Part shown: positions 25,392 to 43,096 of the stretch, one piece after another
How positions within the stretch are numbered: position 1 is the first letter of the stretch
Layout: every line of letters begins with the position of its first letter
Virus record (IMG/VR): IMGVR_UViG_3300044641_004989
Coordinates: 1-43,401 of that record
Reading direction: 5' to 3' (one strand)
Origin: a virus
Length of the DNA: 43,401 nucleotides
The notes under the pieces: generated by a model
Told to the model about the DNA's origin: nothing
The model's input: the letters and a program-made list of their open reading frames with translations, nothing else
The model's database searches: none
Position numbers and translations under genes: made by a program

Positions 25392-26312
25392 ATGTCTAAC
25401 CCTTTTACTGGTAATGTAGTAGCGGACACTACATATTTTTACGCTAACGGCGTCTTAAAATCCGATAGTCTTTACAATCCGGCCACAGGAACAGGATCGG
25501 GTCACATTGAGTTTGATCCAAACGCACAGTGGTTGGACAGCCTCAACAAACGCCGTTCGGATATCACAGACTATATCCGCATGCGCCTAGGTGATGGCAT
25601 AGTAGATGTTGAATTGGACAAAGAACACTACGACATGGCTATCAATCAGGCCTTGGTCAAGTATAGACAGCGGGCAACAAATAGTGTGGAAGAAAGTTAC
25701 GCATTTCTAAAACTGTTTCCGGAAACACAAGAAATCATATTGCCTGACGTGGTCATGGATGTTAGAGCTGCCTACAGACGCGGCATTGGTTCAGTGTCGG
25801 GCACAACTGCCAGCCAATTTGAACCGTTTGCAAGCGGATATTTGAATACTTACATGCTGGTGGCAGGTAGAGTGGGCGGCTTGCTCAACTACGAACTGTT
25901 TGTGGATTATCAAAAGTTGGCCATGCGCATGTTCGGTGGTTATTTGAACTTTACGTTTAACAAAGTGACCAAAAAGCTGACCTTGATACGTAAAATTCCA
26001 TTTGCAGGCGCTAATGCAGATCCTAACGGATTTGAAGATGTGCTATTGCATCTTTACAACTACAAACCAGATGCAATGATACTGAATGATGTACAGTCAT
26101 TTCCGTGGGTGCAAGAGTACGCCTACAGTTTTGCTAAATTGATTGTGGGTGAAGCTAGAGAAAAATATGCCAGTTTGCCAGGGCCACAAGGCGGAACACA
26201 GTTGAATGGTGCCACACTCAAAGGTGAAGCCAAGGCAGAAATGGAAAAGCTGGAGCAAGAATTAAAAGATTTTGTTGATGGGTCAATGCCGTTAGGCTTT
26301 GTCATTGGATAA
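25392..26312 (+). CDS. gp13: Neck protein gp13
   Basis: 306 residues, close to T4 gp13 (about 309). ITDYIRMRLGDGIVDVELDK and HYDMAINQALVKYRQR correspond to the conserved gp13 N-terminal block (a RRLG...INVEL, then a CVxxALELY pattern). The middle has EEIILPDVVMDVRAAYRRG-type strands, and NYELFVDYQKLAMRMFGGYL plus LLHLYNYKPDAMILNDVQSF and WVQEYAYSFAKLIVGEAREK match the C-terminal helices. ATG 25392 is chosen over 25388, which gives only three codons. Role: neck/head-completion subunit acting with gp14. Its stop overlaps the next ATG (TAATG at 26310-26314). Confidence 0.85.
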   Translation: MSNPFTGNVVADTTYFYANGVLKSDSLYNPATGTGSGHIEFDPNAQWLDSLNKRRSDITDYIRMRLGDGIVDVELDKEHYDMAINQALVKYRQRATNSVEESYAFLKLFPETQEIILPDVVMDVRAAYRRGIGSVSGTTASQFEPFASGYLNTYMLVAGRVGGLLNYELFVDYQKLAMRMFGGYLNFTFNKVTKKLTLIRKIPFAGANADPNGFEDVLLHLYNYKPDAMILNDVQSFPWVQEYAYSFAKLIVGEAREKYASLPGPQGGTQLNGATLKGEAKAEMEKLEQELKDFVDGSMPLGFVIG

Positions 26313-26686
26313 TGAAGATTAAAGATATCATACAAGAAAGCGTGGGCGAACTCAAAGATAGCCAACGCAGAGCCACTAGAGGCTTGAACAGATTCACTGA
26401 CGGTAAAAAATGGAACAGTGATTACACACTGTATAGACTGGGGCTGGCACTAGCAGCTACCGACGGCAAAACCATGCCCGAAGTTGATGAAGAATCCTGG
26501 CTTGGTAAATGGAAATTGACAGCGCCTTACAGTCAAGAAGAGCAAGAAATGCTCAAATTGGCTTACAAAGCAGTTCATGCCAATCACGAAGATATGAATC
26601 ACGGCGATCTACGCAGTCAAGAAGGGCCTACTGTTCACAAAGACAGTCCTGTGGCCAAGCCTAAAAAGAACCGGTACGGCGTTTGA
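26312..26686 (+). CDS. Small conserved marine-phage protein
   Basis: 124 residues starting MKIKDIIQESVGELKDSQRR. A central segment reads YTLYRLGLALAATDGK and the C-terminus is KDSPVAKPKKNRYGV. The layout (short MKIxDII N-terminus, MYR-like core, PVAxxxKNxYGV end) recalls a family found near neck or structural genes in marine myoviruses; function not established. The short N-terminal helix with Glu nearby also resembles a T4-type capsid-targeting sequence. Coupled to gp13 by the TAATG overlap and followed by a terminator hairpin. Confidence 0.65.
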   Translation: MKIKDIIQESVGELKDSQRRATRGLNRFTDGKKWNSDYTLYRLGLALAATDGKTMPEVDEESWLGKWKLTAPYSQEEQEMLKLAYKAVHANHEDMNHGDLRSQEGPTVHKDSPVAKPKKNRYGV

Positions 26687-33702: not shown

Positions 33703-34100
33703 TGAAATCACCTAATCAAAACATTACATATCCAACCAATCTTACTGGTATCAACACTAATAATATATCACCGCCTGATACTAGAAATTTTTTTAATAAT
33801 TATTTTAACTTTCCTATAGAAGTCAGTTCCAATATTGATGCAGCTATAATTGCGCATTTTGAAACTGCTGTTGGCAGTAAAGAATCAGCAATGGCGTTGG
33901 CCAGCGCACTAATATATACAGCCATTAAACAAGGACTCAATCCAATGAATGTTCTTGATGAATTCAAAAATTATCCTCCCGACCAAATTGATCTTTATGC
34001 GGCTTTGTTTTTAAACTTTGAAAGAATAGGAACTAGCTTTTTGGGACTTAAAACCAGTCCGCAGCAAAACAAATATGTCAAAAGATCAATACTGCCATAA
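33702..34100 (+). CDS. Conserved structural-cluster protein, unknown
   Basis: 132 residues from ATG 33702, which overlaps the upstream TGA; AAGGAT at 33691-33696 is the ribosome site and the TTG at 33699 is rejected. An Asn-rich N-terminus is followed by a helical domain: NIDAAIIAHFETAVGSKESA, MALASALIYTAIKQGLNP and DQIDLYAALFLNFERIGTSF. I recognise the helical domain (SALIYTAxxQGLNPMxxLDEF) as shared by marine T4-like phages near head-completion genes; no function is known to me. Its stop overlaps the gp4 ATG (TAATG). Confidence 0.65.
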   Translation: MKSPNQNITYPTNLTGINTNNISPPDTRNFFNNYFNFPIEVSSNIDAAIIAHFETAVGSKESAMALASALIYTAIKQGLNPMNVLDEFKNYPPDQIDLYAALFLNFERIGTSFLGLKTSPQQNKYVKRSILP

Positions 34101-34537
34101 TGAAATACGCCAATGGTTTTTATCAGGTTCTCAATCCCAACAAATATGTAGGAAAAAAAGTTCCGCATTATAGAAGCAGTTGGGAACACAGCTTTATGAG
34201 ATTCTGTGACAACAACCCGGCTGTGATACACTGGGCCAGCGAAGCAGTACATATTCCCTATGTGAATCCTTTTACCATGCGCAACACCATCTATGTACCA
34301 GACTTTTTAATTATCTATCAAAATAAAAACGACGAACGTATAGGCGAATTGATTGAAATCAAGCCAGGCAAACAGACCACACTGGAAGCAGCCGGTAAGA
34401 GTGTGAGAGATCAAGCCGCGGCTGTACTCAACATGCACAAATGGGCTGCTGCCAACGCCTGGGCCAAACAACAGGGACTACGCTTCAGGGTAGTAACCGA
34501 ATCAGATATGTTCCACCAGGGCAAAAAGGCTCGGTAA
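34100..34537 (+). CDS. gp4: Head completion protein gp4 (PD-(D/E)XK nuclease fold)
   Basis: 145 residues (T4 gp4 is 150). VPHYRSSWEHSFMRFCDNNP and VIHWASEAVHIPYVNP match the gp4 block (YRSSWE, DxNPxIxxWSSE, IPYxxP). YVPDFLIIY and GELIEIKPGKQT follow, giving the TnsA-like PD-(D/E)XK set Glu29, Asp68, Glu86 and Lys88, then KWAAANAWAKQQGLRFRVVT. Known role: T4 gp4 (genes 50/65) is needed late in head completion, before tail joining, together with gp2. Coupled to the upstream gene by TAATG. The downstream late promoter of gp16 lies over its stop codon. Confidence 0.9.
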   Translation: MKYANGFYQVLNPNKYVGKKVPHYRSSWEHSFMRFCDNNPAVIHWASEAVHIPYVNPFTMRNTIYVPDFLIIYQNKNDERIGELIEIKPGKQTTLEAAGKSVRDQAAAVLNMHKWAAANAWAKQQGLRFRVVTESDMFHQGKKAR

Positions 34538-34540
34538 ATA
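34533..34540 (+). promoter_or_regulatory. Late promoter GGTAAATA for gp16
   Basis: TAAATACCT core spanning the gp4 stop. T4 spacing puts +1 on 34546, the A of the gp16 ATG, predicting a leaderless message. Confidence 0.6.
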
Positions 34541-34545
34541 CCTGC

Positions 34546-35040
34546 ATGACCAAAAAATTATCAGAACTATTTGACTTACCTGACTTGCCATCAACAGATT
34601 CAGCTGAAAACAGCGAAGTGTTGCAGACCATTGCAGACAATCGCGAAGCTATTGCAAGAGTTGATGAAGCCATAGACAAAATTGACGTAGCACTCCCAAC
34701 GGTGAGAGATCTAGAAGCTAGCGATCAGGAAATGGATGAACTGGCAGACCTAGCCAAAAGCAAGTTTGAGGATCTAATGGATTTGGGCATGAACATGGAT
34801 CCCAGATTCGGCGGGGTTGTATTTCAAACAGCAGGCACATTATTAGGACATGCTATCACTGCCAAAACAGCCAAAATGGACAAGAAGCTGCGCATGGTGC
34901 AACTACAGTTACAGAAGGCCAGACTGGATCATCAGATCAGCAAAGAAAATCCAGAAGATCGGCCCGTGGATGGTCAAGGCATAGTGCTGGATAGAAACGC
35001 ACTGCTGGAACAGATTCTTCAAAAGAACAAAAACACATAA
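34546..35040 (+). CDS. gp16: Small terminase subunit gp16
   Basis: 164 residues from ATG 34546, the same length as T4 gp16; the longer frame from 34441 would overlap gp4 and is rejected. MTKKLSELFDLPDLPSTDSA gives the N-terminal LFDLPDLP motif. The centre has two long helices (LADLAKSKFEDLMDLGMNMD and RMVQLQLQKARLDHQISK) of the oligomerising coiled coil, with the GGVVFQTAGTLLGHAITAKT turn between. The C-terminus holds GQGIVLDRNALLEQIL. Known role: ring that recognises DNA and stimulates the gp17 packaging ATPase. gp17 is not in this window, unlike the adjacent 16-17 order of T4. Confidence 0.85.
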   Translation: MTKKLSELFDLPDLPSTDSAENSEVLQTIADNREAIARVDEAIDKIDVALPTVRDLEASDQEMDELADLAKSKFEDLMDLGMNMDPRFGGVVFQTAGTLLGHAITAKTAKMDKKLRMVQLQLQKARLDHQISKENPEDRPVDGQGIVLDRNALLEQILQKNKNT

Positions 35041-35065: not shown

Positions 35066-35689
35066 ATGAAAAGTCTTCACGATTATATAGCCCAACGTAA
35101 TTCAAACTACGCATTCAGGATCAAAGTTGCCAAACAAAATCCTAAAGATATCATGGAAGAAATCAAGCATGCTCTTGATGCCTATGAACTGGTAGATATC
35201 ACTGCACCAAAAAGCTTGCCAGTACAAGAACACAGAGAGTTCCCAAAATGGGGACCATGTGAGTGCTGGCAGTTTGAAGCCACTGTGGCCTACCCAACTA
35301 CACAGGTGCAAATTGCACAACTATTAAAAGAGCGTACAGGCATGCAAGCCGAGTGGGTATGTGTATATGGCAAGCAACAGGCCGACGACAATGATGCATT
35401 TGAAGCCTACGGCAAAGATCACGAAGGCTCATTGCTGTTAGATGGCCAACTCAAGGATGTACCAGGCGGCCAAGATCTAGTAGGCGATCGTCGTAAAGAC
35501 AGTTTGCTGCGAGAACTAGAAGAATCTATGCCTCGTAAAGAAGCATACGATAATCCGCTGTCGGATGTAAAGCAAAGTCCAAGCAAGACTCCTAATGCAC
35601 AAACAACCAACCAATTGCCACAAGGTACTCGGAGCCCAGTAGGAAGCCAGCAAAACAAATTACCACCCGTTAAAGGAAAGAAAAAATGA
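35066..35689 (+). CDS. Conserved T4-like virion-module protein, unknown
   Basis: 207 residues. The N-terminus MKSLHDYIAQRNSNYAFRIK begins with a short amphipathic helix like the T4 capsid-targeting sequence (MKTYQEFIAE). A compact alpha/beta domain follows: AKQNPKDIMEEIKHALDAYE, LPVQEHREFPKWGPCECWQF, VAYPTTQVQIAQLLKERTGM and QAEWVCVY. Then come GSLLLDGQLKDVPGGQDLVG, a DSLLRELEESMPRKE helix and a disordered Pro/Gln/Lys-rich tail. I recognise the alpha/beta domain as shared among marine T4-like phages without an assigned role. It has its own late promoter and overlaps the next gene (ATGA at 35686-35689). Confidence 0.65.
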   Translation: MKSLHDYIAQRNSNYAFRIKVAKQNPKDIMEEIKHALDAYELVDITAPKSLPVQEHREFPKWGPCECWQFEATVAYPTTQVQIAQLLKERTGMQAEWVCVYGKQQADDNDAFEAYGKDHEGSLLLDGQLKDVPGGQDLVGDRRKDSLLRELEESMPRKEAYDNPLSDVKQSPSKTPNAQTTNQLPQGTRSPVGSQQNKLPPVKGKKK

Positions 35690-37545
35690 GCAACAACATT
35701 TATGATATCTTAAAAAAGATGCAAAGCCTAGAGGCTCCTGCTGCCAAGACACAGCTCACTGAGAGCCGGTCAATGAACACCGTTAAGGAATTACACCATG
35801 AAAGCAAGAAGGAAAAACAGACTCGTAAAGGCACGATTGCTGAAGCAGTTGCGCAAGTCGAACAACAACTAAACGAAAAGTACATGGGCTTTAAGAAAGC
35901 CGCAGCGGCTGGTAAAAAATTAGGCGAAGGTGGATTAGATCCTAATCTAAAAAGTCCAAATTTTGACAAGTATAATACAATGGATCGTGCTCAACAAGCC
36001 CGCACAGGAAAATATGAACCTGATGTAGGATCTATAGGTGCCTGGGAAAAAGATGTTCAAGGACAACAAAAATACAAATCAAGAACTGAACCAGGCATCA
36101 TTAATAAAGTAAAAGATACTTTTGGTTTAGACAAACCTGATCCAGCATATGGTCCTAAAACAAATGAAGGTGCGGTAGAAGAAAGTGGTCTACAAGCTTA
36201 CCTAGGTAAAAAGAAATACGGCGAAACTGGAATGAAGGCTTTACAGAAAGCCGGTCGCGATGGTGCTAGCAAAGAAAAGATGGCCATGATTCGTGCCCGG
36301 CACGACAAGATGGACGAGGCCTCGCCAGGAAGTGAAGAATGGTTAAGACAAAGCACAGCCTCATCAGATGATGTTCCTCAAGCGGCAGAGATGCCAACAG
36401 CTACTAGACCTGGTCCTGGTAGTGACGACTGGTTAAGACAGCAAACTGCACAAACAGATAAGGTACAATCAAATACTCCTAGTGTCAAACCTAGTGCAGA
36501 GCCTAGCGTGGCACCTAGTGCAGAACCAAATAAACCAGGTCGTACAAGCTATGGCCCTGGATATAATCCGAATGAACCAGATGTCAAGTCGGATACTAAA
36601 AAAGACAAGCCTAAATCATCTTATAATATAAACGCAGGTACCAAGGCATACCAAAACTTTTTAAATAAAGAATATAGTACGGATTTAAAAGTTGATGGAG
36701 CATTTGGACCAAAAACTAAAGCAGCAGCTAGAGCTGCAGGCGATGCAATGATGGCTTCAAGACCGCAATTTGTTTCATCAAGCTCAAAAGATTATGAAAA
36801 TTACAAAAAGCAAATGGCAGCGTGGCAACCAAAATTTGATAAATTCCAGGATTTTCAAGGACTTGGTAATGCATACAATGTGAAAGCTGGTAAAGATAAT
36901 GTTTACCTTGGAGGACCAAGATATAATCAACTATTGTCAAAATACAATTTAGATTCTAAAACAGGGTTACCAATTGAACCTAAATTAAAAGAGCAGCTAT
37001 ACAAAGAAGGCGATCAACTACCTGCACCACCAGACGAAGTTCATTTACCTAAAAAAGGTAGCAAGCATGGCCCAGTTGACGTTTATAAAAAACCCAAGAA
37101 CGAAGACATGCTGTCGGCCAAAGACAAAAGCTTTGCGGCACTAGCAGAACCCCGAGACAAAATTACCTACGCTGACAAAATTGCCGGTGCTAAAAAAGGC
37201 AAAAAAACTGAAGGCAATAAGTTCTCGGGCAATCTAATGAAAGCACGAGCACAAGGATTAGACAAGGCTGACCTAGACGGCGACGGCGACATGGAAAAAG
37301 TTACTAAAGGTGCCAGCACCATGCGTGAAGGTTGGGAAGAGATGCAAAAGTATCTTGACAAGAAGCGCGGTCCTGAAAGCAAAGGTGGTGCGGGTAAAAA
37401 AGCCGGCACACGCTATGGTGGCTCAGCACAACAAGACGATGACGAGGAAACTGATGGCGAAGGCAAGCCAGTGGAAAAGAAAAAAGGTCGTCCAAAAGGC
37501 ACAGGCACCGGCGCAAAGCATAGCTTCAAGAAGCCCAAAGACTAA
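35686..37545 (+). CDS. Virion-module protein with peptidoglycan-binding-like domain
   Basis: 619 residues, Lys/Gly/Pro-rich and largely disordered. Recognisable parts: a helical N-terminus (MSNNIYDILKKMQSLEAPAA); LQAYLGKKKYGETGMKALQK and a KEKMAMIRARHDKMDE helix (about residues 168-210); two copies of a PGSxxWLRQxT tag (residues 213-225 and about 244-256); a PG-binding-1-like domain at about 314-355 (GTKAYQNFLNKEYSTDLKVD, then GAFGPKTKAAARAAG); a DKADLDGDGDMEKV EF-hand-like loop (about 525-540); and a C-terminal AT-hook-like KKKGRPKGTGTG. PG-binding domains normally anchor cell-wall hydrolases, and the next gene encodes a transglycosylase. A packaged or tail-associated murein factor is inferred; an alternative is a scaffold-like internal protein. 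Confidence 0.6.
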   Translation: MSNNIYDILKKMQSLEAPAAKTQLTESRSMNTVKELHHESKKEKQTRKGTIAEAVAQVEQQLNEKYMGFKKAAAAGKKLGEGGLDPNLKSPNFDKYNTMDRAQQARTGKYEPDVGSIGAWEKDVQGQQKYKSRTEPGIINKVKDTFGLDKPDPAYGPKTNEGAVEESGLQAYLGKKKYGETGMKALQKAGRDGASKEKMAMIRARHDKMDEASPGSEEWLRQSTASSDDVPQAAEMPTATRPGPGSDDWLRQQTAQTDKVQSNTPSVKPSAEPSVAPSAEPNKPGRTSYGPGYNPNEPDVKSDTKKDKPKSSYNINAGTKAYQNFLNKEYSTDLKVDGAFGPKTKAAARAAGDAMMASRPQFVSSSSKDYENYKKQMAAWQPKFDKFQDFQGLGNAYNVKAGKDNVYLGGPRYNQLLSKYNLDSKTGLPIEPKLKEQLYKEGDQLPAPPDEVHLPKKGSKHGPVDVYKKPKNEDMLSAKDKSFAALAEPRDKITYADKIAGAKKGKKTEGNKFSGNLMKARAQGLDKADLDGDGDMEKVTKGASTMREGWEEMQKYLDKKRGPESKGGAGKKAGTRYGGSAQQDDDEETDGEGKPVEKKKGRPKGTGTGAKHSFKKPKD

Positions 37546-37548
37546 ACA

Positions 37549-40350
37549 ATGAAAAAGAGCAAGGTCAATGAAGTAGTAAATCCCTTATCAGCTTTGCAGA
37601 GGTTGAGAAGTGCCTATCAGACTTATAAGTATGGCACGACTGTGCCTACAAAAATTGAAAAAATCAAACAGGCAAAACTTGACACTGCAATTAAACAAGC
37701 ACAATTAAAAGCAGCGAAAAAAGGCACCCCGGCTGCTGCCGATGATGCTGTAGCTAAACCAAAAGGTATAATTGGTAAGACTGTAGATGTTGGTAAAAAG
37801 GCTGCATTGGCTGGTACTGCTGGAACGGTAGGCTATGAATATCTAAAAGACCCCCAAGCAGGATTAGGTCAAGCAGTTGGGCGAGGAGTAGAAACCCTGG
37901 CAGATTTAACTGGCAAAGCATTTGACAAAACGGTAGACTTTGCCGGCGATGTAGTCAAAGGATATGCAGACGCCGATGCAGCTCGCACAGGATCAGGTAA
38001 AGATAAAAGTCAGGTTGCCGTTGCACCTACTGGCTCGTCCAGTGCAACAGACACAGCCACAGACAGTGCTACCTTACCGCAAACTGGATACAGTTCAGTG
38101 AGATGGAGCAAAACTCCTGCTACCATGGATCGGCCACCAGAAATTTTACCTCCAGGTGAATTCAAATTTCAAGAAGCTGCAGGCAAACCTAGCGATGATG
38201 AAGCTACATTGGCAGCATTGCAATATGCTATATACGGGCAAGAAAGTGGTCATGGCAAGGTAAAAACCAATAAGCCAAACTATGCTGGTGCTATTGGTCC
38301 TATGCAGATTATGCCCCGAACCTGGGAGGGCTTGAAACGGCAAGGTTTGATCCCAAAAGATTATGATATTTATAATCCTGAACATAATATGGCAGGCGGC
38401 AACGCACACATAAAAGATTTATACTACAAGTACGGCAAAGACCCTGCCAAAGCTGCTGCTGTTTATTATGGTGGGCCTCGTGCCATTAACAAACAAGGTA
38501 ATATAGTATCTGGATACATAGATAAAAAAAATCCAGATGCACCTAGTGCAATTGGATATAGCAAACAAATATTAGCAAGAATGGCAGCAACCGGTCCGGA
38601 TGGTAAAATAGCAGCAAAACCGCCTATCACCACCGGTGGTATTACTGTACCGGCAGTGGCAACCACAGCCGCTGTTGGCACAGATTTAACCAAACTACCC
38701 ACATCACAACCTGTTGCTCAACCGGCTGCCGGCGAAACTCCAGACAATACCGGTGGCTTGCTCGATCTAAACAAGTTATCACAAGCAATGTCTGCCGGTG
38801 AAGACATGTACGACTTGTCAAGATTTCTAAAACCCACAGTACCACCTGGCAAACTAGCCGAGGCCAAAGTTGCATTGAAATATTATAATTTTTTAAATCA
38901 AAATCTTGTTGAACAACAATCAGTTGGTGCTGAATTAGCAAAAACTAGTGGTGGTCAATTCACAAGTCGTGCAGATAGATTAGATCAAACCAAGGTTGAT
39001 TCAGTACTAGGTGCTGGTAAGTTTAAGGCCGGGTCTGCAGAAGCCAACTTGGCATTAGCAAAATATTTTAAACAACAGTCGGCAGACACCGGGCAAGGTA
39101 CCAAGCCAACACCGCCAAAGCCTGCAGCGGTTGGTGCGGCGTCGCAAAACCCATATACCACCGCCAGAGATGTAACTGGCCTTGGAGCATTGGGAGCAGC
39201 CGGAGCCAGCATGGCAGGTAGTATTGCACCCAAGGTAGCCGGTGTTGCCGCTAAAGTCTTACCAGGATTGAATGTGGCCTATCAAGGAGCTGATGCACTA
39301 CGCAGAGCCAGCATAGGTGATACTACAGGATCAGCTATATCAGCAGCAGGAGCAGTTCCAATATTAGCAGTTCCGGCCGTTGCTGCACAGGCAGTGCGAG
39401 ACAAATATCGCACTGGATCATTCTTCCCATCAGATGAAGAACTAAAAGCCGCAGTAGATAAAGACAAAGGCCAATCGTCTCAGGTCAAAGAAGGAACACG
39501 ACAAATGAATAAACGAACACAACTCCAAAAGAGAATACAAAAATTAGAAGAAGATAAATCACAACTGATTAAAAGGTTAGATGAAATTGGTGTGCTAGCA
39601 AAAGCTTTGAAAACAATCCCCAGTCTGGTCAAAAACTTTGGAGCAGGTGTAGCTGGACGAGCTCCGCAACAAATTAGATCGGCTGGTAAATTTGCAGGAT
39701 TTGCACCTGGAGCAAAAATTGCCAATCGAACCGGTCAAGCAATTGCTAGAAATCCAGGTAAAGTAGCAACCGGGGCATTGGCAACTGGAGCTGGTGCAGG
39801 ATATCTACTGGGTAAAGATAAAAAGCCAGATCAAGATGTTGAACAAGGTATTTTACCTACTCCATCAAAGCCGTCCAGGAAAACTGGACTGATCCATTCA
39901 CCCGAACCGAATATGCCCGGACCAAAGCCGCCAACGGACAAGCCTAGCGATCAAGAAACTCCTGGCACATATTGGGACAATCGTGGTAAAGATCGCCCAG
40001 AGCCAGCTGCTCAACCTTCTACTGGGGCTTTTTTTGATAAACCAGCAGAGCCTGCAATTAACAAACCCAGTGATCAACAAGATTCGGACACATATTTTTC
40101 AAGTAAAAAGCCTACCAATATTGATGTAGAGGCAACTGCGGCCAGAGATCGTATTCAGCAGATGATGAATCGTAGCGAACCTAATACTAGTTCGCCAGGA
40201 AGTCAGTCATGGTTAGACAAAGCCACCAAGACCGGAGACATTGGACAGCAAAAAGGACCTTCGCCGGGTAGTGATGCATGGCTAAGACAAGCAACTAAAA
40301 CTGATGAAAGCTTGGATCGACTAAAACTGCTTGCAGGATTAAAGAAATAA
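37549..40350 (+). CDS. Lytic transglycosylase-domain virion protein
   Basis: 933 residues. Residues about 215-350 form an SLT-type lytic transglycosylase: ALQYAIYGQESGHG with catalytic Glu232, then YAGAIGPMQIMPRTWEGLKR, PEHNMAGGNAHIKDLYYKYG and DPAKAAAVYYGGP. Residues about 540-615 (GLGALGAAGASMAGSIAPKV and AISAAGAVPILAVPAVAAQA) and about 720-765 are Gly/Ala-rich and hydrophobic, possibly membrane-active. MNKRTQLQKRIQKLEEDKSQ is a short coiled coil near residue 655. The C-terminus carries two PGSxxWLxxATKT tags and ends LDRLKLLAGLKK. The overall plan, one murein-cleaving domain within a large flexible protein, resembles ejected virion proteins such as T7 gp16 (analogy only). It starts four bases after the previous stop. 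Confidence 0.8.
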   Translation: MKKSKVNEVVNPLSALQRLRSAYQTYKYGTTVPTKIEKIKQAKLDTAIKQAQLKAAKKGTPAAADDAVAKPKGIIGKTVDVGKKAALAGTAGTVGYEYLKDPQAGLGQAVGRGVETLADLTGKAFDKTVDFAGDVVKGYADADAARTGSGKDKSQVAVAPTGSSSATDTATDSATLPQTGYSSVRWSKTPATMDRPPEILPPGEFKFQEAAGKPSDDEATLAALQYAIYGQESGHGKVKTNKPNYAGAIGPMQIMPRTWEGLKRQGLIPKDYDIYNPEHNMAGGNAHIKDLYYKYGKDPAKAAAVYYGGPRAINKQGNIVSGYIDKKNPDAPSAIGYSKQILARMAATGPDGKIAAKPPITTGGITVPAVATTAAVGTDLTKLPTSQPVAQPAAGETPDNTGGLLDLNKLSQAMSAGEDMYDLSRFLKPTVPPGKLAEAKVALKYYNFLNQNLVEQQSVGAELAKTSGGQFTSRADRLDQTKVDSVLGAGKFKAGSAEANLALAKYFKQQSADTGQGTKPTPPKPAAVGAASQNPYTTARDVTGLGALGAAGASMAGSIAPKVAGVAAKVLPGLNVAYQGADALRRASIGDTTGSAISAAGAVPILAVPAVAAQAVRDKYRTGSFFPSDEELKAAVDKDKGQSSQVKEGTRQMNKRTQLQKRIQKLEEDKSQLIKRLDEIGVLAKALKTIPSLVKNFGAGVAGRAPQQIRSAGKFAGFAPGAKIANRTGQAIARNPGKVATGALATGAGAGYLLGKDKKPDQDVEQGILPTPSKPSRKTGLIHSPEPNMPGPKPPTDKPSDQETPGTYWDNRGKDRPEPAAQPSTGAFFDKPAEPAINKPSDQQDSDTYFSSKKPTNIDVEATAARDRIQQMMNRSEPNTSSPGSQSWLDKATKTGDIGQQKGPSPGSDAWLRQATKTDESLDRLKLLAGLKK

Positions 40351-40355
40351 TAATA

Positions 40356-40363
40356 GGTAAATA
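40356..40363 (+). promoter_or_regulatory. Late promoter GGTAAATA
   Basis: TAAATA core six bases after the transglycosylase stop. Predicted start is about 40369, and the leader contains AAAGGAATAAAGG before ATG 40388. Confidence 0.65.
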
Positions 40364-40387
40364 GTACAAAGGAATAAAGGAATAAAG

Positions 40388-43096
40388 ATGGATCCAAAAC
40401 TAATGCGTATGTACAGTGATATGCTAAACGAAGCACCAGCACAACAACCAGCACAACAACCACCACAAACACAACCTTCGCTTGGTGGAATTTGGAATGC
40501 TATTAAAGGAACATTCGCGAATGCGGGACGATCAAATGTTAATCCTACAGGACCAGATGGCAAACCAACCGCCCCAGGCCCTGGTGTTGCATTAGCAAGT
40601 CCGGGTGGTAAAACGAATCCTGGGCCTGTATCGACAGTCAAACCTGCGCCTGTGAGCGGCTCTAATTTGCCTGCTAAAAAACCACCTGCTAAAAAACCAC
40701 CTGCCAAACCGGCCCCAGTTCAATCACAACAACCTGCCCAGACTGCTCCTGGAGGTGGTCCTACTAATGCAGCGCAATTAGCAGCCGCACAAGGTAAAGA
40801 GCCAGCAGCACCAGCAGGAGCAGGAGGCGGATCAGGTAGTGGTTATTTTGGATCAGGCGCTGGCGTAGGTGCGGCAACGAATGACCCAGATACAAGAAGC
40901 AGCACAGCCAGAGGTGTAGCCAGTAATTTAACAATTACAGGTGGACCAACTGCTGATGCTCCTGCATCTCAAGCAGCAGTGGCTAATGCTTCTGGTACAG
41001 GTCTAGGAGCTCAAACAGATGCATTTGGTCCTGTGACACAGGTAGCACAACCACAGACAGCTACAACAAATCCTACGGGTACCGGTTCAGGTGGTGGCGG
41101 AGTTGTTGGAACCAAATTGGCAGGTGATACCAACATTGGCACTAGAGACTACAGCAAAGCAGACATGTCGCCTGGTAATTACATGCGACAAGCAACAACA
41201 GCGTTCCAAGAAGAGTCAGAATTAGCCGAAGACGAATTGTCAGAAGAGCAGTTGGAAGAAGCATTTAACGACATGTTGCGTTTAAGTGGTTTAGAAAAAA
41301 AAAATTTAGAAGAATCTAAGTTAGTAAACGAAAAAGCAGTTAGTAAACAACAGCAAAAATTTATGGGCATGGTACATGCCATGCAAAAAGGCGAAAAGGT
41401 CAAAGGTGCCAGTCCAGAACTAAAGAAAGCAGCAAAGTCAATGGGTAAAAAAGATGCCCGAGACTTTGCAGCTACCAAGCACAAAGGCCTGCCACAAAAA
41501 GTCAATGAAGGTATCCACTTGATGTTGGATGAAGATGGCCACACGCTAGAACACATTGTCAACAGATACAAGCACGAAGTTAGACGATTCATCGAAGGCG
41601 ATTTTATGCCTGAGAATTTGTATGATGCCCTGTATGACTATTACATGGACCGCGGCGACATGCCATACGGTGTGGCCAAAGCCAGAGAAGGTGATCCATA
41701 CCAGTGGGTTTCGGAGCGTTTTTATGATGATGTCATGCGCGACCTAGGCAATGGCATGAACGAAACTGTACAACCAGTCATGGACAACACACTAAACGAA
41801 TTGGCTCAATTGGCTGGATTGGCTCCTGCAGCCAAAGATATTTCGTTGGGAAATATTGCACGTAAGTCTGGAGAATTTGTTGGGCAAATTGAAAAAGGTG
41901 CGTCAGATACTGCAGGAGCAATTAAAAGAGGTATGTCAGACATTGCAAGCAATTTTCAGGCAGGTAGAGAAGCAGGTAAAAAACCAGAATTTGGCCCAGC
42001 ATTTACTAAGGGAGTCGACCCAAGCCTCAGAACTACTCCGGATGCAAAAATGTCTCCAAAGCCAATGCCAAGAGAGCTACCAAGTCCTGGACTTGGTAGT
42101 CTACCAAGTCCTAAAGTTGGCTACGGAGCGCGAGGTCCTGGCAGTGAAAACCCATTGCGCGAATCAGAAATAAATGAGTGTGGAGACATGGGCATGGATC
42201 AACGCGACACTATCAATGTCAGCACCAACATGAGCAGCGATGGCAACAAGAGTGTAAACATCAGTGCCCAAGGTGAAAAAGCCGAAGAGCTATTGGCCAT
42301 GCTGAAACTGGCAGGCATGGGCGATAAACCTCGTTTTAATACCGATGATGGTGTAGATCTGGATCATCCAGGTGCTATAGAAATTCATGGCACAATGGAT
42401 GCAGATGGAGCAGAACAATTGGCCAAACAATTGCGTCATGCGTCTATGTCTGAACAAGAAATGATGGACGAAGCAAAGAAAACTAGAACAACAAAATACA
42501 AAAATACTCCCGACGAAGAATATCAAAGCGTTGCAAGTATCACTAGACAAGGCAATGACTTGAATAGAGAAAAGCGTCAATACGCAGACAAGCCCAAGTT
42601 AGGTGATAATCCAATGGCTGAAAGTTTTTCGTTAGAAGAACAATTTGAAACATTGTATAACAGCATTTTAGTAAAAGAAGCAGATCCGAACAGACCAAAA
42701 GGCGATACTGGTATTGCCGATATTTTTACTGCCGGCAAAGGTATCCCACCTCCCAGTCCAGACGAAGGCCCAGTTGGTAAAGCCGCAACTACCCCTACCC
42801 AATCTCCTACAACGGGCAAACCAGCACAATCAGGACTTGCAGGCTTTAAGTCGGCTCAAGGAGCAGGACCAGCAGCACCAACAGGTACAGGAGCCAGTGG
42901 ATTCCCGGTACAAGGAACACAAACATCCCGTCAATCGGCACTTGCAGGCTTTAAGTCGGCTCAAGGAGCAAAGGGACCAGCAGCACCAACAGGTACAGGA
43001 GCATCACCGACACCAAAAACGACAACGCAGTCAGCATTAAATATACGAATTCCGGGCGCAACACAAGCAGCACCAGCACCAGGAACCAAGCGATGA
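40388..43096 (+). CDS. Large low-complexity virion-module protein with DUF3008-like domain
   Basis: 902 residues. The N-terminus MDPKLMRMYSDMLNEAPAQQ has an LNE-A sequence fitting a T4 gp21-type cleavage site. Pro/Gln and Gly/Ala-rich linkers follow (including KKPPAKKPPAKPAP). About nt 41335-41508 encodes AVSKQQQKFMGMVHAMQKGE ... KKDARDFAATKHKGLPQKV, which matches the DUF3008 pattern. A helical domain (EHIVNRYKHEVRRFIEGDFM, LYDALYDYYMDRGDMPYG) precedes TINVSTNMSSDGNKSVNISA, a module I recognise from marine phage proteins. LxxLAGL-type motifs occur three times. The C-terminus contains a direct repeat. No catalytic motif is seen. Likely an internal or scaffold-type structural protein. It ends with ATGA overlapping the last gene. 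Confidence 0.6.
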   Translation: MDPKLMRMYSDMLNEAPAQQPAQQPPQTQPSLGGIWNAIKGTFANAGRSNVNPTGPDGKPTAPGPGVALASPGGKTNPGPVSTVKPAPVSGSNLPAKKPPAKKPPAKPAPVQSQQPAQTAPGGGPTNAAQLAAAQGKEPAAPAGAGGGSGSGYFGSGAGVGAATNDPDTRSSTARGVASNLTITGGPTADAPASQAAVANASGTGLGAQTDAFGPVTQVAQPQTATTNPTGTGSGGGGVVGTKLAGDTNIGTRDYSKADMSPGNYMRQATTAFQEESELAEDELSEEQLEEAFNDMLRLSGLEKKNLEESKLVNEKAVSKQQQKFMGMVHAMQKGEKVKGASPELKKAAKSMGKKDARDFAATKHKGLPQKVNEGIHLMLDEDGHTLEHIVNRYKHEVRRFIEGDFMPENLYDALYDYYMDRGDMPYGVAKAREGDPYQWVSERFYDDVMRDLGNGMNETVQPVMDNTLNELAQLAGLAPAAKDISLGNIARKSGEFVGQIEKGASDTAGAIKRGMSDIASNFQAGREAGKKPEFGPAFTKGVDPSLRTTPDAKMSPKPMPRELPSPGLGSLPSPKVGYGARGPGSENPLRESEINECGDMGMDQRDTINVSTNMSSDGNKSVNISAQGEKAEELLAMLKLAGMGDKPRFNTDDGVDLDHPGAIEIHGTMDADGAEQLAKQLRHASMSEQEMMDEAKKTRTTKYKNTPDEEYQSVASITRQGNDLNREKRQYADKPKLGDNPMAESFSLEEQFETLYNSILVKEADPNRPKGDTGIADIFTAGKGIPPPSPDEGPVGKAATTPTQSPTTGKPAQSGLAGFKSAQGAGPAAPTGTGASGFPVQGTQTSRQSALAGFKSAQGAKGPAAPTGTGASPTPKTTTQSALNIRIPGATQAAPAPGTKR
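42836..43002 (+). repeat. Two-copy in-frame direct repeat
   Basis: Copy 1 is 42836-42894, copy 2 is 42941-43002. They are identical apart from a 3-base AAG insertion in copy 2 at 42971-42973. They encode LAGFKSAQGA(K)GPAAPTGTGA. The near identity shows a recent duplication. Confidence 0.9.

Follow-up and report, generated by a model that had tools for sequence, protein, structure and literature searches.

Short shared peptide tags in three adjoining genes of a giant T4-like phage: candidate docking signals of putative prohead-core proteins and a lysin

Introduction

Why do a lytic transglycosylase and the protein encoded beside it carry the same short peptide, PGSxxWL(R/D)(Q/K)xT, in two copies each? 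The question is raised by a 43,401-nt stretch of DNA (the window), part of the genome of a T4-like jumbo phage that is uncultured and a relative of PA5oct. A preliminary description of this DNA read the two proteins as the two halves of a murein hydrolase and suggested that the shared tag marks a common partner. The two genes and a third that adjoins them, here termed p1, p2 and p3, span 35686..43096 on the + strand. They lie downstream of sheath, tube and head-closure genes, with terminase beyond. PA5oct gp281 occupies the equivalent slot, between gp282 and terminase.

34100..34537, + strand: gp4-like head-closure gene, a marker of context (phrog_218, E=4e-39)
35686..37545, + strand: p1, 619 aa, lysine-rich and multi-module, prohead-core/internal-head candidate (cleavage-site enrichment, homologues)
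37549..40350, + strand: p2, 933 aa, SLT lytic transglycosylase with a scaffold-type C-terminal tag (Pfam, translation)
40388..43096, + strand: p3, 902 aa, multi-module, prohead-core candidate (cleavage sites, three LAG tags)

Domains of p1 and p2 and exchange of the lysin

38200..38508, + strand: p2 SLT domain, residues 218-320 (PF01464, E=2.5e-14)
39331..39387, + strand: single transmembrane-like segment of p2, SAISAAGAVPILAVPAVAA, conserved half (hydropathy; kept in relatives L005, L024 and L026)
36640..36747, + strand: peptidoglycan-binding-like stretch of p1, AYQNFLN...LKVDGAFGPKTKAA, unconfirmed (sub-cut-off Pfam)

The p2 protein fits an SLT-type domain with a catalytic glutamate. It scores 53.3 bits against PF01464 (cut-off 21.3), and the motifs GQESG...GPMQIMP...AAVYYGG, which include QESG, can be read in the translation. 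A PDB sequence search with the SLT region gave nothing usable. By tblastn in phage records, p1 had no match, and p2 matched a Delftia phage over its lysozyme-like domain and nothing else; among phage isolates, no p1 or p2 homologue was found that extends past the lysozyme-like domain.

Of the proposed domain pair, the transglycosylase in p2 is secure, and the peptidoglycan-binding domain of p1 falls below both Pfam cut-offs (PF09374, E=6e-4, 20.3 bits against 24.6; PF01471, E=0.013, 16.1 bits against 23). The motif LKVDGAFGPKTKAA is suggestive of peptidoglycan binding. The stretch had no solved-structure match in a PDB sequence search, and its single-sequence AlphaFold model (pLDDT 60) gave no structural match at E<=0.001. 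In other respects p1 resembles a multi-module prohead-core protein. The reading of p1 and p2 as one split murein hydrolase was dropped, as the p1 domain is unconfirmed. In 35 homologous contigs the ends of p1 are conserved and the middle is variable.

In related phages the lysin slot is filled interchangeably by SLT, GH19 or LysM domains, while starts of the form MK..xE↓G/A (or KLAE↓AD; the arrow marks a cleavage-like position) and ends carrying the tag here termed LAG persist. The C-terminal LAG is missing in two SLT relatives, L007 and L008. Starts within the p2 family include MKAKEIIGE↓G, MKITDIVNITSLNE↓A and MKISDITNE↓A; the start of p2 itself, KVNE↓VV, fits the targeting-peptide pattern only partially.

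It is very unlikely that p2 is an ordinary endolysin of a lysis cassette. A lone SLT or GH19 domain is compatible with that role, and p2 homologues show a weak holin-like match (PF16081, E ~0.002, below cut-off). Against it, p2 is 933 aa long with long disordered linkers and a scaffold-type tag, it sits between head-closure and terminase genes, and no holin or spanin gene was recognised adjoining it.

The PGSxxWL tag

36322..36357, + strand: PGS tag 1, in p1, SPGSEEWLRQST (translation)
36415..36447, + strand: PGS tag 2, in p1, PGSDDWLRQQT (translation)
40192..40233, + strand: PGS tag 3, in p2, SPGSQSWLDKATKT (translation)
40261..40305, + strand: PGS tag 4, in p2, SPGSDAWLRQATKTD (translation)

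Translations of p1 and p2 match all four of the copies first described, and the tags are not a product of chance. When p1, p2 and p3 were shuffled 5000 times, PGSxxWL occurred 0.0 times per shuffle, and the wider form PG[ST][DEQ]xW[LFM][RKDQ], a pattern picked post hoc, was seen 13 times against 0.01 expected in 752 genes of related contigs. The motif patterns were selected after inspection of the sequences. Codons differ between the PGS copies (CCA/CCT/CCG, GGA/GGT, TTA/CTA) and their flanks are unrelated; recent duplication of DNA was therefore dropped as an explanation.

The tag is sporadic and is not conserved in the p1 or the p2 family. It is absent in all 35 p1 relatives and is missing from the p2 of the closest homologue, L005, at the exact place of the copies in p2; two further p2 relatives, L026 and L043, do have it. 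An exact-pattern DNA scan of IMG/VR found nothing beyond a near-identical contig and a single chance match that is out of frame, and the tag is thus a feature of this lineage. Enrichment of the tag across viruses was thus seen among related contigs and not in the IMG/VR scan. The form PG[ST][DE]xW[FL] is also present in a small protein encoded beside terminase, in 18 of 18 copies from 18 related contigs. This protein combines a PG[ST][DE]xWF core with a scaffold-type LAG tag; it had no match worth pursuing in phage records and no homologue in phage isolates, and its structure prediction was of low confidence, with no fold match. A search of the open PubMed Central literature, where motif letters search poorly, found no description of a PGSxxW or LAG head tag.

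Are the PGSxxWL repeats no more than linker repeats that lack a function and have spread through recombination, whatever the role of p1–p3? This is a serious possibility, although we incline against it. The sporadic occurrence of the tag, with its absence from L005 p2 and from other p1 relatives, speaks for it, as does the fact that the copies in p1 and p2 are always within proline-rich linkers. On the other side are the retention of motif residues despite diverged codons and flanks, the core kept in every copy of the small LAG protein, and the excess of occurrences over expectation. A plausible alternative, judged from these patterns, is that PGSxxWL may be a second docking motif beside LAG.

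The LAG tag and the scaffold

40309..40347, + strand: C-terminal LAG tag of p2, SLDRLKLLAGLKK, with TDE just before (motif scan)
41264..41293, + strand: LAG tag a of p3, FNDMLRLSGL (motif scan)
41792..41821, + strand: LAG tag b of p3, LNELAQLAGL (motif scan)
42290..42319, + strand: LAG tag c of p3, LLAMLKLAGM (motif scan)

The LAG tag is a short helix with a LAGL/LSGL ending. It is found at the C-terminus of p2, at the N-terminus of the small protein and, in three copies, within p3. The gp22-like scaffold of this lineage also ends in it, as do those of PA5oct, RaK2, 121Q and GAP32. Scaffold C-termini read EIKRLAGLK (sister contigs G002 and G004), ELKRLAGL (G010), VEELRRLAGIK (PA5oct gp330), ELDVLSGINKK (121Q), EIAKLSGMDKKR (GAP32) and DLKRLAGIKK (Atu_ph07). 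The C-terminus of T4 gp22 has no LAG tag, and LAG is therefore not a general T4 feature.

The LAG motif has 54 matches in 782 genes, compared with a mean of 6.1 in shuffled and 2 in reversed sequences. Among 47 distinct-gene matches, 16 lie at most 4 aa from the C-terminus, against 0.85 expected, and 14 of these 16 have E[SANDE] just upstream, against a background of 30%. LAG may be only a generic oligomerisation helix and no packaging label, an idea we regard as improbable: short amphipathic helices commonly oligomerise, and LAG is also internal in p3 and N-terminal in the small protein. Its frequent extreme C-terminal position, mostly right after glutamate sites, points the other way. So does its distribution: it is carried by scaffold, lysin and head-module genes, and the rate in other genes is 0.6 per 10,000 aa, a comparison of core with other genes that is partly circular. 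LAG is a better candidate than PGS for a head-loading label of p1–p3. The suggestion of a common partner holds in kind, with docking in the head interior as the best guess; the stronger of the shared tags, LAG, had been overlooked.

Cleavage-like sites and targeting-like peptides

35686..35733, + strand: N-terminal targeting-like peptide of p1, MSNNIYDILKKMQSLE↓AP (conserved in nearly all p1 relatives)
40388..40432, + strand: N-terminal targeting-like peptide of p3, MDPKLMRMYSDMLNE↓AP (sequence; conserved in relatives)
41336..41503, + strand: DUF3008-like module of p3, akin to one in cyanophage proteins (PF11450, phrog_30268, tblastn)

The N-terminal peptide of p1 resembles the start of PA5oct gp281, MFNINDILRLAGV. 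Sites of the gp21 type, [LIVMF]xE↓[AGSTN], number 11 in p3 against 3.9 in shuffles (z=3.8), the most enriched protein of the window, and 6 in p1 against 2.4 (z=2.3); p2 is not enriched (3 against 2.5, z=0.3). The richest proteins are the scaffold (z=5-6.8), gp21, p3 and the p1 family, and tail proteins are not among them. Multiple sites, as in gp22 and gp67, are thus a property of p3, p1 and the scaffold. Such sites arise easily in glutamate-rich proteins. A gp21 protease (Peptidase_S77) is encoded in sister contigs G002 (E=5.6e-26), G004, G010 and G017; G002 also has homologues of p1–p3, and the window does not span the gp21 region. The DUF3008-like module of p3 is below cut-off for PF11450 (E=0.0019) and matches phrog_30268 at E=3e-19; by tblastn it matches 159 phage records, nearly all cyanophages.

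These sites bear on whether p2 is a tail or baseplate virion lysin with a gp5-like role, p1 and p3 being accessory tail or neck proteins and the tags docking tail parts. Sheath, tube and head-closure genes do precede p1–p3, and the baseplate is the usual site of virion lysins in T4-like phages. However, the LAG tag equals the scaffold C-terminus, the cleavage-like sites group scaffold and gp21 with p3 and p1 and not with tail proteins, another PA5oct protein, gp350, is annotated as the baseplate tail lysozyme, and neither Pfam nor PHROG finds a gp5-type domain in p2, whose context runs from head closure to terminase. A tail location is unlikely.

A proposed model

The reading that we favour, and consider somewhat probable from the sequence patterns, is that p1–p3 are prohead-core or internal head proteins and that p2 is a packaged lysin docked by its tag. 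We infer targeting, cleavage, packaging, ejection and binding as follows. The three proteins would be made late and join the prohead core via short docking peptides, namely N-terminal peptides M...(L/I)xE↓A/G and LAG helices that copy the scaffold C-terminus. A gp21-type protease would cleave behind glutamates, both where modules meet and immediately ahead of LAG tags, and cleavage would free the cargo within the head. The p2 transglycosylase may then leave with the DNA into the envelope and open the cell wall, a role like that of T7 gp16, with targeting of the kind used by T4 internal proteins. PGSxxWL, which lies in disordered linkers of p1 and p2, would be a second motif, probably helix-capping, and most likely binds some head-assembly partner.

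Comparison with known systems

In T4, an N-terminal peptide targets internal head proteins to the core and is removed by gp21 (PMC9026906, PMC9958956). Like T4 IPI-III and Alt, p1 and p3 have a short N-terminal hydrophobic-x-E before A/G/S and a late head-gene context, with the gp21 homologue here in sister contigs. They differ in the extra C-terminal or internal tag of p2 and p3 that copies the scaffold C-terminus, in long chains of modules, and in exchangeable peptidoglycan hydrolases as cargo; cleavage here is predicted. T7 gp16 is a packaged virion lytic transglycosylase whose hydrolase domain is mosaically swapped (PMC8954989). The p2 transglycosylase is likewise predicted to be in the head and to exit with DNA, and has one transmembrane-like segment, but it comes from a contractile-tailed T4-like jumbo phage and has its own targeting tags.

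In SPN3US/phiKZ, giant phages of another lineage, the prohead protease processes ejection proteins; many head proteins are cleaved C-terminal to glutamate, in the context A-x-E or S/A/G-x-E, and a C-terminal propeptide of the SPN3US protease is a proposed core-targeting signal; the passages concerned do not mention a LAG-like shared tag (PMC5694885, PMC7411985). PA5oct gp281, annotated ESI-MS/MS, shares with p1–p3 the equivalent slot and has two LAG tags; unlike p2, it lacks both a lysin domain and a PGS tag. Cyanophage S-SCSM1 ORF89-93, annotated virion proteins, have p1/p3-type modules (DxDKDGxxxEPMKKAA, DUF3008), and ORF91, an NMNAT, starts with MKSFLQFLKE↓A (PMC9602691); no LAG or PGS tags were seen in ORF89-93. 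The annotations of gp281 and of the S-SCSM1 proteins lend indirect support to the prediction that proteins of this kind are part of the mature head.

Significance

A wider and more doubtful proposal is that the PA5oct/RaK2 T4-like jumbo phages use a modular address code, a protease-removed LAG helix that mimics the scaffold together with a second helix motif, PG[ST]xxW[LF], which loads interchangeable cargo, SLT, GH19 or LysM cell-wall proteins included, into the head for injection. The LAG tag is on scaffolds of the cultured phages PA5oct, 121Q, RaK2 and GAP32 and the proposal is directly testable. If true, a short peptide would foretell head-loaded proteins in a large group of giant phages, most of them now annotated as hypothetical. 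It would also point to a testable way in which enzymes are packaged and injected, in this case cell-wall hydrolases that vary from one relative to another, and lysin exchange would be tied to the infection step and not to lysis.

Affiliation of the virus

The 43.4-kb record carries T4-type tail sheath, tube and head-closure genes. Genes were called by a simple longest-ORF rule, and three consecutive ones are considered here:

35686-37545, + strand, p1
37549-40350, + strand, p2, the SLT protein
40388-43096, + strand, p3

The nearest homologues of p1 and p2 (locus L005) are located on contig G002, which also encodes a gp67-like protein, a gp21 protease (PF03420, E=5.6e-26), a gp22-like scaffold and gp23. 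This scaffold is 42% identical to that of PA5oct and is related to those of 121Q, RaK2, GAP32 and Atu_ph07. The window phage is therefore related to the jumbo phages of the PA5oct/RaK2 group. A further contig, whose p2 is 100% identical to that of the window over 908 aa, extends beyond the window end, through the terminase.

Shared tags

The preliminary description reported a tag, PGSxxWL(R/D)(Q/K)xT, twice in p1 and twice in p2. Translation places all four copies exactly where they had been put (36322-36357, 36415-36447, 40192-40233 and 40261-40305), and they fit that consensus. They sit within proline-rich linkers and match at the protein level, since their conserved residues use different codons and their flanks are unrelated. 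The SLT domain of p2 is solid (PF01464, E=2.5e-14). The PG-binding domain assigned to p1 is wrong or unproven: both Pfam matches fall below the cut-off, and PDB sequence search and fold comparison of this stretch gave no match (model pLDDT 60). The tag is real, and such tags do imply a shared partner, as had been proposed; its rank as the primary tag is wrong or unproven, and by sequence a second motif, a short helix ending in LAGL or LSGL (LAG tag), is the stronger shared tag.

The C-terminus of p2, SLDRLKLLAGLKK, is of LAG type, and p3 has three copies (FNDMLRLSGL, LNELAQLAGL and LLAMLKLAGM). The tag also forms the N-terminus of a small protein of a near-identical contig (MNDIEQLRVLAGI) and the C-terminus of a 480-aa protein downstream of the terminase (EELASLRKLAGL). 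In sister contigs the gp22-like scaffold itself closes with EIKRLAGLK, and its PA5oct counterpart with VEELRRLAGIK; scaffold C-termini are of the same kind in GAP32, Atu_ph07, Vibrio 2.275.O, RaK2, 121Q and Phosso and looser, INAGIKKN, in SCTP-2, and T4 gp22 does not end in a LAG tag. With patterns tuned by eye, 782 genes contain 54 matches to the LAG pattern, whereas shuffled sequences give 6.1 and reversed ones 2; a separate comparison between core genes and the rest is partly circular. The motif lies within 4 residues of the C-terminus in 16 of 47 distinct-gene copies (0.85 expected); 14 of these 16 have E followed by S/A/N/D/E in the eleven residues up to the LAG start (background 30%). 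An after-terminase protein with a LAG tag at its end (L039:9054-10493) is homologous to PA5oct gp278 and to RaK2 and GAP32 'virion structural proteins'.

The PGS tag is sporadic. It is found in none of 35 p1 relatives and once each in two p2 relatives (L026 and L043), as RPGPGS(E/D)QWLRSEL. L005 p2 lacks it, with ...QQMVNRTNESLDRLKLLAGLKK at the place of ...QQMMNRSEP-[two tags]-TDESLDRLKLLAGLKK in window p2; the tag is dispensable in close relatives. A small protein of 68-126 aa, encoded in 18 contigs, has a conserved related form, mostly [RK]PG[ST][DE]xWFKLWFSxPYLTGE. The combined pattern has 13 matches versus 0.01 expected in 752 unique genes, a descriptive figure because the pattern was drawn after the data were seen, and is confined to the p1, p2 and small-protein families. 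Because its core recurs in the small LAG-tagged protein, the PGS tag is a plausible candidate for a second docking motif. The small protein (L038:6722-6928 and 17 related contigs) adjoins the terminase, with a LAG tag at its N-terminus and PG[ST][DE]xWFKLWFSxPYLTGE at its C-terminus; searches of Pfam and phage records gave no match to it, and PHROG only a weak one (E=0.16).

Cleavage-like sites and targeting peptides

T4 gp21 cleaves on the C-terminal side of glutamate, at LIE-9 in its own sequence, and frees internal proteins of the short capsid targeting sequences at their N-termini (PMC9026906, PMC9958956). Sites were scored as [LIVMF]xE|[AGSTN] against shuffles. The largest excess is in the scaffold (z 5-6.8) and gp21 (z 3.6-4.9), followed by p3 (z reaching about 4) and the relatives of p1 (z 2.3-3.4); sheath, tubes and fibres show no excess, and p2 is not enriched. 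In p1 relatives xxE|G/A/S recurs at module boundaries, e.g. KMDE|GSYNEDML and SMRE|GWEEMQ.

A 193-aa protein (L039:5471-6052), enriched in such sites and with a T4-CTS-like N-terminus, MKTLREYIEQVEES, is a further internal-protein candidate. Between the head-tail adaptor and dNMP-kinase-like genes, 26312-26686 encodes a small protein whose N-terminus, MKIKDIIQESVGEL, resembles a targeting peptide. The ORF listed at 34441-35040 probably starts later, at MTKKLSELFDLP; the segment preceding that start overlaps, in a different frame, with the head-closure gene.

Exchangeable modules

Among ten proteins compared in the gene place held by p2, the enzymatic or binding domain varies: SLT in the window, L025, L007 and L008, weak SLT in L028 and L030, GH19 in L005 and L026, and LysM in L024. 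The N-termini are kept (for example MKAKEIIGE|G, MKITDIVNITSLNE|A and MKISDITNE|A), and most C-termini are of LAG type; the L007 and L008 proteins instead begin ...KKLAE|ADP and lack a LAG tag at the end. Packaged cargo would look so, an exchangeable domain between constant address peptides. In addition, p2 contains a single conserved transmembrane-like segment. The p1 homologue L005:10001-11893 has three tandem copies of a ∼100-aa module (EGPADLLAAIEQEI...), which may be another exchangeable cargo module; together the copies give a Pfam Ntox14 match (E=6.6e-11 over the whole protein), and no stretch passes by itself.

Virion proteins of relatives and proposed role

PA5oct gp281, encoded between gp282 and the terminase, carries two LAG tags, and its annotation records detection by ESI-MS/MS. 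In cyanophage S-SCSM1, for which 45 virion proteins were reported by mass spectrometry (PMC9602691), ORF89-93 have p1/p3-type modules and are annotated as virion proteins. ORF91 (L102:3188-4417) is a virion-detected NMN adenylyltransferase with the N-terminus MKSFLQFLKEAAE, a T4-like targeting peptide that would explain its packaging.

Most simply, p1, p2 and p3 would be proteins of the prohead core or the head interior; we infer their targeting, cleavage, packaging and binding from sequence alone. They would be targeted by short peptides, some of which mimic the C-terminus of the scaffold itself, and processed by the gp21-type protease. p2 would then be a packaged lysin at work during DNA entry, the role in which T7 gp16 acts (PMC8954989).
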